Below the pieces are notes generated by a model. It worked only from the letters and a program-made list of their open reading frames with translations, was not told where the DNA came from and searched no databases. A stretch of 37,839 bases of DNA from a virus. The position numbers and the translations under genes were made by a program. The stretch is from the IMG/VR virus record IMGVR_UViG_3300042879_001828, positions 1 to 37,839 of that record. One strand, 5' to 3'. This document shows, one piece after another, positions 3,746 through 29,564 of the stretch. How positions within the stretch are numbered: the stretch's first letter is position 1; every line of letters begins with the position of its first letter.

Positions 3746-6700
3746 TTAGTGTTTTACTACTATTTCTATAACTGATGTTAAGTTATCATTATTTGCAGTA
3801 AAATCTTCTAACGCTTTTCCTATTACGCTACCCACAACTGGACTACTGCATGCTTGTGCGAATCCATTTGCAGCAGATACTAATATGTCACCTTTTTTGA
3901 CAGAACCGATAATTTTAACTGGAACTCTACCCTGTAACGCGACAGCTACTACATGAGTTGATGACAGTTCGCTATTCATTAAATAAGCTGGATTTGTACT
4001 AACTACTCCTGCAACCGAAGTAGACATATTCGTCGTAGTTATAGTTACTTCTTTTGTTCCGCCAAACTCTAATACTGTGCCTGGACTGTAATTTGCATCA
4101 GCTATGTATAATTCAGCAAGGTCGGCATATTGTGCAGACGTAGCAGTTCCAAAAAATTTACCTCCAATAATGACATTACCTGCACTAGCTCCGGATATGT
4201 TTAAGTTACCCGTTCCTGGATTGTATCTTAAGCCAGGATCATCGGCATATGCAATTTGACTTGATCCAACTGCAGGAACTAAAACTGGATAAAAAGTAGA
4301 ATTTGATGCAGTATCGGTTGCATTTATGATGGTACTAGGACCAGTTGGACCTTGTGGTCCAGTGGGACCTTGTGGTCCAGTTGGGCCTTGTGGTCCAGTA
4401 GGTCCTTGTATGCCCTGCGGTCCTTGCGGGCCCTGTGATCCTTGTGGTCCAGTAGGTCCTTGTATGCCCTGAGGTCCTTGCGGGCCCTGTGATCCTTGTG
4501 GTCCAGTAGGTCCTTGTATGCCCTGTGGTCCTTGTGGTCCTTGTGGTCCCTGAAGACCTCTTGGTCCTTGTGGTCCTTGTGGTCCAGCGACAGAACTTGC
4601 TGCTCCCTGTGGGCCTTGTGGACCAGTTGGTCCCTGTGGTCCCTGTACTCCTAAATTACCTGTTCTAGTGAAAGATATTGATAATATTTCATTATTTGTT
4701 GGAATTGAACCAGATATATACGTTACAGTTATTTTCCAATAATTAGTAGAATCTACTGAGGCTCCGGTAATTTTAAATATATTAATTGTTGTTTGAGTTG
4801 CCGCTGCCCCACGGATAATTAAATATCCTCTATCAGTTGTTGTTGTAGAGTCATCCCACTCTCCTATGAAAGCGGACTGATTTATACCATTAAAATAATC
4901 AATATCATTAATGTATAATGTTGTGACTGACCCAATTGTACCACTACTGTATTTTATTTTTCCAGTACCTGGATCAGAGTCCGTGGTGTTGTTACTCCAC
5001 TGGTAAAGAACTCCAGTGTTATATGCGTCACTTCCTGGATTTCCTTGTGGTCCTTGTGGTCCTTGTGGTCCTTGTGGTCCCTGCAAACCACGTGGTCCTT
5101 GTGGCCCCTGCGCGCCTTGTGGCCCAGGTACAGAACTTGGTGCTCCCTGTGGGCCTTGTATGCCTTGAGGTCCTTGTGGGCCTTGTATGCCTTGGGGTCC
5201 CTGTGGTCCTTGTATGCCCTGTGGTCCTTGTGGTCCTTGTGGTCCCTGTGCGCCTTGTGGTCCAGGTACTGTACTTGCATCACCAGGTAAACCACGGGGT
5301 CCTTGTGGTCCTTGTATTCCCTGCGGTCCTTGTGGTCCCTGTATACCCTGTGGTCCTTGTGGTCCTTGTGGTCCCTGTATACCCTGTGGTCCTTGTGGTC
5401 CTTGTGGTCCTTGTATGCCCTGTGGTCCTTGTGGACCTTGTGGTCCTTGTGCGCCTTGTGGTCCAGGTACTGTACTTGCATCACCAGGTAAACCACGTGG
5501 TCCTTGTGGTCCTTGTGGTCCTTGTATACCCTGTGGTCCTTGTGGTCCTTGTATGCCCTGCGGTCCTTGTATGCCCTGCGGTCCTTGAAGTCCTTGTGGT
5601 CCTTGTATGCCCTGTGGTCCTTGTGGTCCTTGTGATCCTTGTGGTCCAGTAGGTCCTTGTATGCCTTGTGGCCCTTGTGGTCCTTGTATACCCTGTGGTC
5701 CTTGTGGCCCTTGTGGTCCTTGTATACCCTGTGGTCCTTGTGGTCCTTGTGGTCCTTGTATGCCCTGCGGTCCTTGAGGTCCTTGTGGCCCTTGTATGCC
5801 CTGTGGCCCTTGAGGTCCTTGTATGCCCTGTGGTCCCTGTGGCCCTTGAGGTCCTTGTATGCCCTGTGGTCCTTGCGGTCCCTGTATACCTTGCGGTCCC
5901 TGTGGGCCTTGTGGTCCCTGAGGTCCACTCGCACCTACTGCACCATTTAAATTTACTGTCCAAGAACTAAATGTGGTTTCGACACCTGCTACTATAGTTA
6001 CATTAACAATTAATGTAGAATCAGAGTATGAGGTCACTGTTCCTATCATGTAATTACTGGAAGAATTTGCAATAATTACAGCTTGTCCTATCGAATAAGC
6101 TAAGCCTGTTCCTATTTGAAGAGTTTTTTCACCAGTAGAATTTAAAAGCGAACTGCTAGATGTTGTTGAATATGTATCCCCCACTGGACCTCTTGGTCCT
6201 TGTATACCCTGTGGTCCCTGTGGTCCCTGTATTCCCTGAGGTCCTTGTGACCCTTGTATACCCTGTGGGCCTTGTGGTCCTTGTATACCCTGTGGTCCTT
6301 GTGATCCTTGTGTTCCAACATCACCGACTGCACTTATAGTCCATGAATCAAAAGTTCCAGATCCAGAGGTATATACTGAATTAATTGCAAAATTTGTTCC
6401 ACTATATGTAGTTATTAATCCTTCCATATAAGTTGTTGGAATAATTGTGTAAATAATTCTAACTCGTTGACCTACTGTAAATGCACTTTGTGTATTTGAC
6501 TTATTTACTGTAAAAGTTTTAGTTCCATTTCCGATCGAAACGGAAGTTGATGAAGTCAATGTTTCATATCCAAGTCCAGTCGGTCCTTGTGATCCCTGCG
6601 GCCCTTGTATGCCCTGTGGTCCTTGTGGACCCTGAGGGCCTTGTAAACCTCTTGGTCCTTGTGGTCCTTGTATGCCCTGTGGTCCTTGTGGTCCTTGTAT

Positions 6701-9700
6701 GCCCTGTGGTCCTTGTGGACCTTGTGGCCCTTGTATACCCTGTGGACCTTGTGGTCCCTGTATACCCTGCGGCCCCTGTATGCCTTGTGGTCCTTGTGGT
6801 CCCTGTGATCCTTGAGGTCCAGAAGGTCCTTGTGGCCCAGTTGCGCCGACCGCACCCGAAAGTGCAACTTGCCAACTATTATATGTTCCTGAACCAACAT
6901 TTGATACTGAGTCAACTATCATTCTTCCATTACCAGAAGCATACGATGACACTGTACCTATCCAATAATTACTTGAGTTATTAGATATTGTAACTGATTG
7001 CGCAGTAATATAAGCTAAACCCGTCGCCACGATAAATGTGACTTCTGTAGGATGAGAGATAGGTATTGCAAAGTTTGTACTACTTGTTGTTGCATATCTA
7101 TCACCAACGGGTCCTTGTGGTCCTTGCGATCCCTGTGGTCCTTGTGGTCCTTGTGGTCCTTGTATACCCTGTGGGCCTTGTGGTCCTTGTATACCCTGTG
7201 GTCCTTGCGGTCCTTGTGGTCCTTGTATGCCCTGTGGTCCTTGCGATCCCTGAGGTCCCTGTATCCCCTGAGGTCCTTGTGGTCCTTGTATGCCCTGAGG
7301 TCCTTGTGGTCCAGGCACAGAACTTGCTGCTCCCTGTGGTCCTTGTGGACCCTGAGGCCCTTGTGGTCCTTGTATACCCTGTGGTCCTTGTGGTCCTTGT
7401 GGTCCTTGTATGCCCTGTGGACCTTGTGGTCCTTGTGGTCCTTGTATGCCCTGTGGACCTTGTGGCCCTTGTATGCCCTGTGGTCCTTGTGGTCCTTGTG
7501 GTCCTTGTATACCCTGTGGTCCTTGTGGTCCTTGTGGTCCTTGTATACCCTGTGGTCCTTGTGGTCCTTGTATGCCTTGAGGTCCTTGTGGTCCTTGTAT
7601 ACCCTGTGGTCCTTGTGGTCCTTGAGGTCCAGAAGGTCCTTGTGGCCCAGTTGCGCCGACCGCACCCGAAAGTGCAACTTGCCAACTATTATATGTTCCT
7701 GAACCAACATTTGATACTGAATCAACTATCATTCTTCCATTACCAGAAGCATATGATGACACTGTACCTATCCAATAATTACTTACATTAAAAGAAACAG
7801 TTACTGACTGAGCAGCTATATAGGCTAATCCAACTTCTACAGTAAACGTAACTGTTGTTGGATGAGAAGAAGGTATCGCAAAGTTTGTGCTACTTGTTGT
7901 TGCATATCTATCACCAACGGGTCCTTGTGGTCCTTGCGATCCCTGTGGGCCTTGCGGTCCCTGTGGTCCCTGTATACCTTGTGGTCCTTGTATGCCCTGT
8001 GGCCCTTGTGGCCCCTGTGGGCCCTGTATACCCTGTGATCCTTGCGGTCCCTGTATACCCTGTGGTCCCTGTATACCCTGTGGTCCTTGTGGGCCCTGAG
8101 GGCCTTGTGGTCCAGGCACAGAACTTGCTGCTCCCTGTGGTCCTTGCGGTCCTTGTGGCCCTTGTATACCTTGAGGTCCTTGTGGTCCTTGTATGCCCTG
8201 TGGGCCTTGCGTTCCTTGTGGACCTTGTATGCCCTGTGGTCCTTGTATGCCTTGAGGTCCTTGTGGTCCTTGTATGCCCTGTGGGCCTTGCGGTCCCTGA
8301 GGTCCCTGTATGCCCTGAGGTCCTTGTGGGCCTTGTATACCCTGTGGGCCTTGTATACCCTGTGGGCCTTGTATACCCTGTGGTCCTTGTGAACCTTGTG
8401 GTCCAGAAAGACCTTGTGGTCCTTGAGGTCCAGAAGGACCTTGTGGACCAGTTGCACCGACCGCGCCCGAAAGTGCAACTTGCCAACTACTATATGTTCC
8501 AGTTCCTATGTTTGACACTGAGTCAACTATCATTCTTCCATTGCCAGAAGTATAAGATGACACTGTGCCTATCCAATAGTTACTTGAGTCATAAGATATT
8601 GTAACTGATTGAGCAGCTATATAAGCTAAACCAGTTTCAACAAAAAATGTTACTTGTGTTGGATGAGAAGTAGGTATTGCAAAGTTAGTGCTACTTGTCG
8701 TGGCATATCTATCACCAACGGGTCCTTGTGGTCCCTGTGTACCCACTGGGCCTTGTGGACCTTGTATACCCTGTGGACCCTGTGGGCCCTGTGGTCCAGG
8801 CACAGAACTTGCCGCTCCCTGTGGTCCTTGCGGTCCAGTAGGTCCCTGAGGTCCCTGTGCTCCTTGTGGTCCAGGTACATTACTCACACCACTAGGTCCT
8901 TGAGGTCCTTGTGGACCTTGAGAACCTTGCGGCCCTTGTGGACCGCGATCACCTTGAGGTCCTTGTGGACCTTGACTACCCTGTGGTCCCTGCGCACCTA
9001 AATTACCTATAGGTCCTTGAGGTCCTTGAGGTCCTTGTGTTCCAACGCCACCCGCTACACCTTGTGGTCCCTGAGGACCTTGTGGTCCCTGAGAACCAGA
9101 AGGTCCAGAAGGTCCTTGTGGACCCGGAACAGTGCTTGCTGCACCAGTAGGTCCTTGTGGTCCTGGAGGACCAGATGGACCAGGTACGGTACTTATAGGA
9201 CCAGTGGCACCAGTAGGTCCTTGAGGACCAGACGCTCCGGTAGCTCCGCTAGGGCCACGTGGTCCTTGTGCGCCACTTGGTCCTTGTGGTCCCTGAGGAC
9301 CTTGCACTCCTCTTGGTCCTTGTGATCCTTGTGGTCCAGAAACTCCCGAAGGACCTTGCGGACCTTGCGCTCCCTGTGGTCCAGTTGGTCCTTGAGGGCC
9401 TACCGCTCTTACACCATTTGCATAAAAATAATCACTTGCTATTACATTGCTTGTAAATGTAGAATTAGCAGCATTAACAACAAAAACATTTGAAATGCCA
9501 GCAATACTTGTTGCTACATTTCCACTTGAATAGACAATAACATTACTAGAACCATTTTCTATTCTTGTACCACCTGGTAATCCAGACAAGAAATAACCAT
9601 TACCTAGAAAGTATTCTGCATCAACATTACCTGCTACTGTTAACAAATTTGCTTGTTTTTCGAATGTAAATCCTGTACTTCCTGCTAACACATTAGCATC

Positions 9701-28648: not shown

Positions 28649-29512
28649 TCATTCTTCGTACATTCCGCTGCCAGTGGCCATATTTTGTCTGGTATAGCTA
28701 GGATTCAAATTGTTTAATTCTAGAATATCATCACGTAGATTTTGATTCCGTTTTTCAATATTTAAAACTCTCGTAAAAGCATTTGTTATCGCCGCAGTAT
28801 AGTAGGCAAATGGATTTAAACTTTTGCTCTCATCAAACTGAAGACCAATTTGACTTAACTGAAGTAGTGCTTGACTACGCATTTCATCATTGTATGTATA
28901 GCCTCGCCAGTTGCTACGGGTAGCATAGCGTTCACATAATTTCATGAACATATGTGCAAGTTTGTTAGTCATTTTTCCATGATCTTTACTAAAATGTCCA
29001 TCAGTTAAAGATCCCTTCCAGTGACTTCTACCTACGAGGTAAGGATTGACTTCCGAATCAACTTTATAGTGTACAAATGGTGGAAAATTAACTTTTATAT
29101 ATTTGGCTGGTTTAACGTCTTCTTCATCGTATTCAGTATGGATGATTTCGTCATCATCGTCATCTTGTACAATGTCCTTTGCTTTTGATAATTTTGATGT
29201 ATCATTTGGCACATGTTCCCATGTCATAACTCTAAAAACTAAATCAGTAACTTTAATATCGCTTTCTTTAATTTGACAGTCGTCTAGTTTTTTCTTTTCT
29301 TGTGAATCAGTAGAACTTCTTTCAAGTTCCAACTTTGACAATCGTTCGGCACGATTTTTAATTGCCTCTTCTATATTCTTATTGATATCAGACACATTGC
29401 TTAGAATAATGTCGTAGTGTTCGCAGGTTGAGTCTAGATAACTGCAATATGAATTTTTGCTTTTATGAATTTCTTTAAGAATATCCTTGTTGTTTAAGTA
29501 ATTGGTTTTAAT
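28649..29512 (-). CDS. gp55: Late-transcription sigma factor gp55, probable AUU start
   Basis: 287 residues from an ATT at 29510-29512, or 248 from the GTG at 29395. Core signature (near the C-terminus): NKLAHMFMKLCERYATRSNW, RGYTYNDEMRSQALLQLSQI, GLQFDESKSLNPFAYYTAAI and FTRVLNIEKRNQNLRDDILE, the T4-type late sigma region that binds core polymerase and reads TATAAATA. I prefer the upstream start: 39 codons before the GTG stay open and encode KTNYLNNKDILKEIHKSK and NSYCSYLD segments that look like the N-terminus of marine-phage gp55 as I remember it; AAGGAG lies 7 nt before the ATT; the GTG has no ribosome-binding site. No ATG, GTG or TTG exists in the extension. An acidic linker (DDDDDEIIHTEYDEED) lies mid-protein. 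Confidence 0.88.
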   Translation of the reverse strand: MKTNYLNNKDILKEIHKSKNSYCSYLDSTCEHYDIILSNVSDINKNIEEAIKNRAERLSKLELERSSTDSQEKKKLDDCQIKESDIKVTDLVFRVMTWEHVPNDTSKLSKAKDIVQDDDDDEIIHTEYDEEDVKPAKYIKVNFPPFVHYKVDSEVNPYLVGRSHWKGSLTDGHFSKDHGKMTNKLAHMFMKLCERYATRSNWRGYTYNDEMRSQALLQLSQIGLQFDESKSLNPFAYYTAAITNAFTRVLNIEKRNQNLRDDILELNNLNPSYTRQNMATGSGMYEE

Positions 29513-29518
29513 TTTAAT

Positions 29519-29525
29519 TCTCCTT
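29519..29525 (-). promoter_or_regulatory. Strong Shine-Dalgarno AAGGAGA before an ATT codon of gene 55
   Basis: AAGGAG (29525-29520), 7 nt, then ATT (29512-29510) in frame with gp55. There is no ATG/GTG/TTG in frame or at proper spacing. This site decides the proposed AUU start. Confidence 0.7.
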
Positions 29526-29535
29526 CAAACAAAAC

Positions 29536-29564
29536 ATGGTAACACATAGAAAACTGTTTGTCAA
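29536..29564 (-). promoter_or_regulatory. Sigma70-type promoter for gene 55
   Basis: TTGACA (29564-29559), exactly 17 bp, then TACCAT (29541-29536) on the minus strand: a perfect -35 and a 4/6 -10. It would give a ~20-nt leader ending at the AAGGAG site. Makes sense for a gene needed before late transcription. Confidence 0.6.

Follow-up and report, generated by a model that had tools for sequence, protein, structure and literature searches.

Gene 55 of an uncultured phage probably starts at an AUU codon behind a strong Shine-Dalgarno sequence, a pairing that recurs among its relatives

The late transcription sigma factor (gp55) encoded in the window, the whole 37,839-nucleotide stretch of viral DNA analyzed here, is strongly supported by sequence comparison as starting at an AUU codon at position 29512. 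In the reading that we prefer, with a probability of roughly 70%, gene 55 is translated from this AUU, the combination of a weak codon and a strong Shine-Dalgarno (SD) sequence sets a low, IF3-sensitive dose of gp55, and the alternative combination of AUG with GGAG is selected against. The features on which this reading rests are collected in Table 1.

Table 1. Features of gene 55 in the window, and genes of a second family with ATT starts in related contigs (L, contig handles)
Feature	Position	Strand	Remarks
Gene 55, late transcription sigma factor	28649..29512	-	287 codons counted from ATT 29512
AUU start codon (strongly supported)	29510..29512	-	ATT/ATC/ATG/GTG/TTG at the same position in relatives
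Shine-Dalgarno AAGGAG	29520..29525	-	7-nt spacer to AUU
Sigma-70-type promoter TTGACA-17-TACCAT, extended -10 (TGn)	29536..29564	-	Predicted
Conserved gp55 N-terminal segment, codons 2-39, upstream of GTG 29395	29396..29509	-	Synonymous changes, identity, homologue extents, T4 N-terminus
GTG, first conventional in-frame codon, rejected as start	29393..29395	-	Without SD; inside the conserved protein
PHROG 16202 genes with ATT start	L365-L368, L408, L425, L436-L438, L442, L444		
PHROG 16202 gene with ATT start behind GGAG/GGGGA	L326:17707-18222	+	

The gp55 frame (29524..28649, minus strand) opens after the stop codon TGA at 29527-29525 and contains no ATG, GTG or TTG upstream of GTG 29395 (window positions 28649-29524, minus strand). 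This frame scan bears out an earlier note on the same DNA, which had described that GTG as the sole conventional in-frame start and as lacking an SD; the placement of ATT exactly 7 nt after AAGGAG was re-checked and is correct. AAGGAG (29525-29520) is the strongest well-placed SD among the long-ORF starts scanned in the window. The promoter that the note had placed just upstream is likewise present, with TTGACA at 29564-29559 and TACCAT at 29541-29536 separated by a 17-nt spacer, and carries an extended TGn -10 element as well. From these boxes the gene 55 mRNA is predicted to start at about 29529, with a leader of ∼17 nt. A promoter-like pair is present in 55 of 58 AUU/AUC gp55 leaders, compared with 29 of 135 shuffled sequences. 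The amino acid inserted at the AUU is presumably fMet. Elsewhere in the window, two ORFs on the minus strand (6556-6915 and 7015-7725) show start-codon and SD patterns that recur with an offset of 810 bases, which suggests that a segment is repeated there.

The identity of the gene is supported at the level of both sequence and neighborhood. Its product matches PHROG 12791, ‘sigma factor for late transcription’ (E = 5.8e-78, the match beginning at residue 2), PHROG 234 (E = 6.3e-24) and the T4 gp55 chain of PDB 7d7c_F (E = 3e-5), and the gene adjoins the 47/46 nuclease genes in the same order as in PA5oct and 121Q. Megablast returned no close GenBank phage to the window. The tblastn alignment with jumbo-phage gp55 runs from residue 1, homologues overall starting at residues 1 to 5, and the N-terminal block NYLNNKD, common to the window and its relatives, reads NYVNNKE in T4 gp55 (window N-terminus: IKTNYLNNKDILKEI). 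Compared with the sister sequences L107 and L201, the 39-codon segment retains 87-89% amino acid identity, no lower than the rest of gp55, while having accumulated 15 synonymous codon changes against each. Together with the shared NYLNNKD motif, these values indicate that the upstream 39 codons are coding and under purifying selection, as expected if they form the gp55 N-terminus that the earlier note had proposed. All 58 of 58 homologues of the window gp55 reach far past the first conventional codon, and the same is true for gp55 of G001, a 338-kb contig from a jumbo phage relative. In a start-extension scan of 500 ORFs with relatives, drawn from the window and three large relatives, these two gp55 genes were the outliers. 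The possibility that relatives lack the extension, which would have told against an AUU start, is not borne out.

A census of relatives places the window within a larger group. IMG/VR gp55 genes were aligned on the NYLNN block, and the codon three positions before it was scored in 205 non-identical genes. ATT occupies this position in at least 39 genes and ATC in at least 7 that have no conventional in-frame start at all, giving at least 46 strict gp55 genes, the window included, for which ATT/ATC is the only possible start; the search patterns for ATT relatives fixed codon 2, so that these are counts rather than population frequencies and codon 2 is not comparable. At least 13 further genes have ATT at the same codon, and the conventional codons that lie upstream of it in these genes have a weak SD or none. 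Among the matches listed, a conventional codon stands there in the remaining classes (ATG 64, GTG 12, TTG 1), and neither ATA nor CTG occurs as a strict start, the ATA cases inspected having an ATG 2-4 codons upstream. The rest of the 205 genes have different N-termini. A start-agnostic set of relatives contains strict ATT in 4 of 68 distinct gp55 genes. Cyanophage matches aside, which number in the hundreds, the few cultured phages inspected (PA5oct, 121Q, Phosso, Atu_ph07 and Vibrio 2.275.O) have annotated gp55 starts near the conserved N-terminus; the match to Salicola SCTP-2 begins only at residue 82. The earlier note's suggestion that relatives might begin with ATG at this codon therefore holds for many of them (others having GTG or TTG), but dozens again carry ATT or ATC.

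The non-canonical codon is coupled to a defined upstream module. GGAG precedes 44 of 46 de-replicated AUU/AUC gp55 genes but only 2 of 57 conventional relatives; the spacer is exactly 7 nt in 39 of the 46, and codon -1 is AAA in 36 of 46, compared with 5 of 57 conventional relatives. In other genes of these phages GGAG occurs at 5-16%, whichever start their gp55 has. A small test on seven independent pairs from supported branches points the same way, the SD following the codon in 5-6 of 7 and the opposite occurring in none (median p ∼0.06). The combination of AUG with GGAG is nearly missing among gp55 genes, which suggests that gp55 overproduction is avoided. Many gp55 promoters carry a dyad, GTTAG-N5/6-CTAAC, across their -10 region, which could be an operator, and in some others unrelated small hairpins lie before the SD (noted upstream of gp55 in L130, L098, L155, L121, L202, L004 and L015); a leader hairpin as a conserved class in gp55 is not supported (mean z about -0.3).

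Phylogenetic analysis indicates that this state is inherited within clades and has been switched repeatedly, as the start state is strongly clustered on the gp55 trees (none of 500 shuffles gave so low a number). Counted regardless of direction, changes between AUU/AUC and conventional starts number 14 in a quick 160-protein tree whose alignment columns exclude the start codon, 7 of them forced by starred branches, and 9 in a careful 79-protein tree, again with 7 forced. The signature is also gene-specific. In ∼1.55 Mb, made up of the window plus 14 related contigs, GGAG before ATT with no conventional start defines 8 ORFs, and 8/8 are gp55; genome-wide use of AUU starts was looked for in these phages and not found. 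A second gene, PHROG 16202 (function not assigned), starts at ATT downstream of GGAG or GGGGA in some relatives (Table 1). Its ATG homologues mostly lack an SD and show TAAATA shortly before the ATG (L369-L434), an arrangement reminiscent of a T4-type late promoter whose mRNA would be almost leaderless. Taken together, the alignments and trees indicate that AUU/AUC starts recur in dozens of contigs for a single viral regulatory gene, in which the SD co-evolves with the codon and at least seven switches are well supported.

How such a start would be read depends on the initiation factors available. No IF3 gene was found in 14 IMG/VR contigs (13 with AUU gp55 and one with GUG), among them the 338-kb AUU relative G001. 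This genome (L306, L307) carries an array of ∼39 tRNA genes in which no initiator tRNA was recognized, its three CAT tRNAs being judged non-initiator by eye. Host factors would therefore act on this start, and gene 55 presumably uses the host initiation machinery. Escherichia phage 121Q encodes an IF3 C-domain protein (L300, 34184-34438, E = 6e-15), and its gp55 start is conventional. In the proposed mechanism, AAGGAG at exactly 7 nt would hold the 30S subunit on the short leader (∼17 nt by prediction). Because the initiator tRNA pairs imperfectly with AUU, initiation would then proceed slowly, leaving IF3 the opportunity to reject it. The weak codon and strong SD would together set the late sigma factor at a low level, with gp55 dose rising when IF3 discrimination is relaxed and falling when IF3 is abundant, and selection would disfavor AUG with GGAG as a pairing that overproduces gp55. 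We infer both the involvement of IF3 and the effect on dose by analogy with infC and Streptomyces sigR; these and pcnB make the IF3 sensitivity of gp55 synthesis that the earlier note had suggested plausible, and the AUU start may also have a role in timing. Many relatives manage with AUG or GUG and a weaker SD at gp55, and the AUU is therefore not essential to the late switch.

Some rival explanations concern whether or how translation begins at the AUU. Mistaking ATG for ATT through sequencing or assembly error, a concern that the earlier note had raised for positions 29510-29512, is suggested by nothing but the rarity of AUU. ATT also stands at this codon in the two closest relatives and in over 40 further contigs, and ATC in 7, together with GGAG-N7; this excludes an error and leaves it a negligible probability. 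Initiation at GTG 29395, with the upstream codons untranslated, has in its favor that this is the first conventional codon in frame. It would, however, proceed without an SD and delete an N-terminal block that is conserved in relatives and T4 and under purifying selection; this conservation contradicts it, and we consider it extremely improbable. A frameshift or re-initiation that would bring ribosomes in from a mini-ORF upstream (ATG 29537, MFCLKEN) is scarcely better placed and very improbable: its stop codon, TAA 29516-29514, does lie close to the AUU, but the mini-ORF is probably not transcribed because its ATG overlaps the -10 box. In L003 and L111, moreover, an in-frame stop directly abuts the ATT on its upstream side, and as a class the hairpins in the leader do not reach significance.

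Other explanations accept the AUU and differ in what it does. AUU/AUC with a strong SD may simply equal AUG with a weak SD in gp55 output, so that switching is near-neutral and carries no regulatory role, a reading that we regard as somewhat unlikely. It accounts for the joint change of codon and SD in gp55 and for the existence of canonical sisters (L253 with GTG beside L008 with ATT), and compensation between start codon and SD is a known prokaryote trend (PMC5622118). In that same survey, however, switches from AUG to AUU are near-absent, at 1 in 61,358 ancestral AUG starts (PMC5622118), whereas gp55 alone shows 9-14 changes; almost no other gene in these phages uses AUU, and AUU is kept through whole clades though one transversion restores AUG. 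Less probable again is a timing function in which free IF3 drops relative to 30S during infection, so that gp55 synthesis from AUU increases and turns on late transcription; the late switch would then sense the translation state of the host. Non-canonical and leaderless starts are IF3-sensitive (PMC2268962, PMC5472188), and the PHROG 16202 gene shares the module while its ATG homologues look leaderless; against this reading, neither a phage IF3 nor an initiator tRNA was found in the large AUU genome. A low, IF3-sensitive set-point of gp55 remains our preferred interpretation.

More tentatively, and with the odds somewhat against it, uncultured jumbo-type phages may have repeatedly evolved the AUU/AUC and GGAG-N7 module such that passage from early to late expression depends on the start-codon fidelity of the host (IF3 availability). 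If true, a viral transcription switch would be subject to a checkpoint at the level of translation. If confirmed, the AUU, AUC, AUG and GUG orthologues would form a natural set for testing the effects of start codon, SD and IF3 on sigma dose. It would also imply that gene callers restricted to ATG/GTG/TTG cut gp55 short in these phages and lose its conserved N-terminus. Within the incomplete coverage of the open-access literature, no reports of AUU starts in phages or of unusual gp55 starts were found.

Known systems offer partial parallels. T4 gp55 is likewise a late sigma factor with the N-terminus NY[LV]NNK[DE], but it starts at AUG behind AGAGGTG, and the window gp55 is a larger protein. 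The broader prokaryote trend also pairs weaker start codons with a stronger SD (PMC5622118); there, however, the codons are GUG and UUG and almost never AUU, whereas in gp55 they are AUU/AUC and the pairing is gene-specific and recurrent. Two E. coli genes are known with an AUU start, infC and pcnB, and IF3, the infC product, acts against the AUU start of its own gene (PMC9410913), in line with its general destabilization of non-canonical codon-anticodon pairs at initiation (PMC2268962, PMC5472188). infC resembles gene 55 in combining AUU with a strong SD (start region: GGAGGAATAAGGTATTAAA), and its AUU is also followed by AAA (GGAGGAATAAGGT-ATT-AAA). Unlike gene 55, a phage late sigma gene for which no phage IF3 was found, infC and pcnB are host genes, and infC is a case of direct IF3 autoregulation. 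The closest anatomical match is Streptomyces sigR, a sigma factor gene whose GTC start and long SD are IF3-repressed and in which a conventional codon leads to unregulated overproduction (PMC5472188). Its start is conserved across the genus and serves dose control of its regulon (PMC5472188). sigR differs in its GTC codon, its anti-sigma factor and its place in a bacterial stress response, and the IF3 effect was demonstrated there by experiment; nevertheless, the AUU and GGAG of gp55 share the anatomy of the GTC and long SD of sigR, a sigma factor gene with a non-canonical start behind an extended SD.
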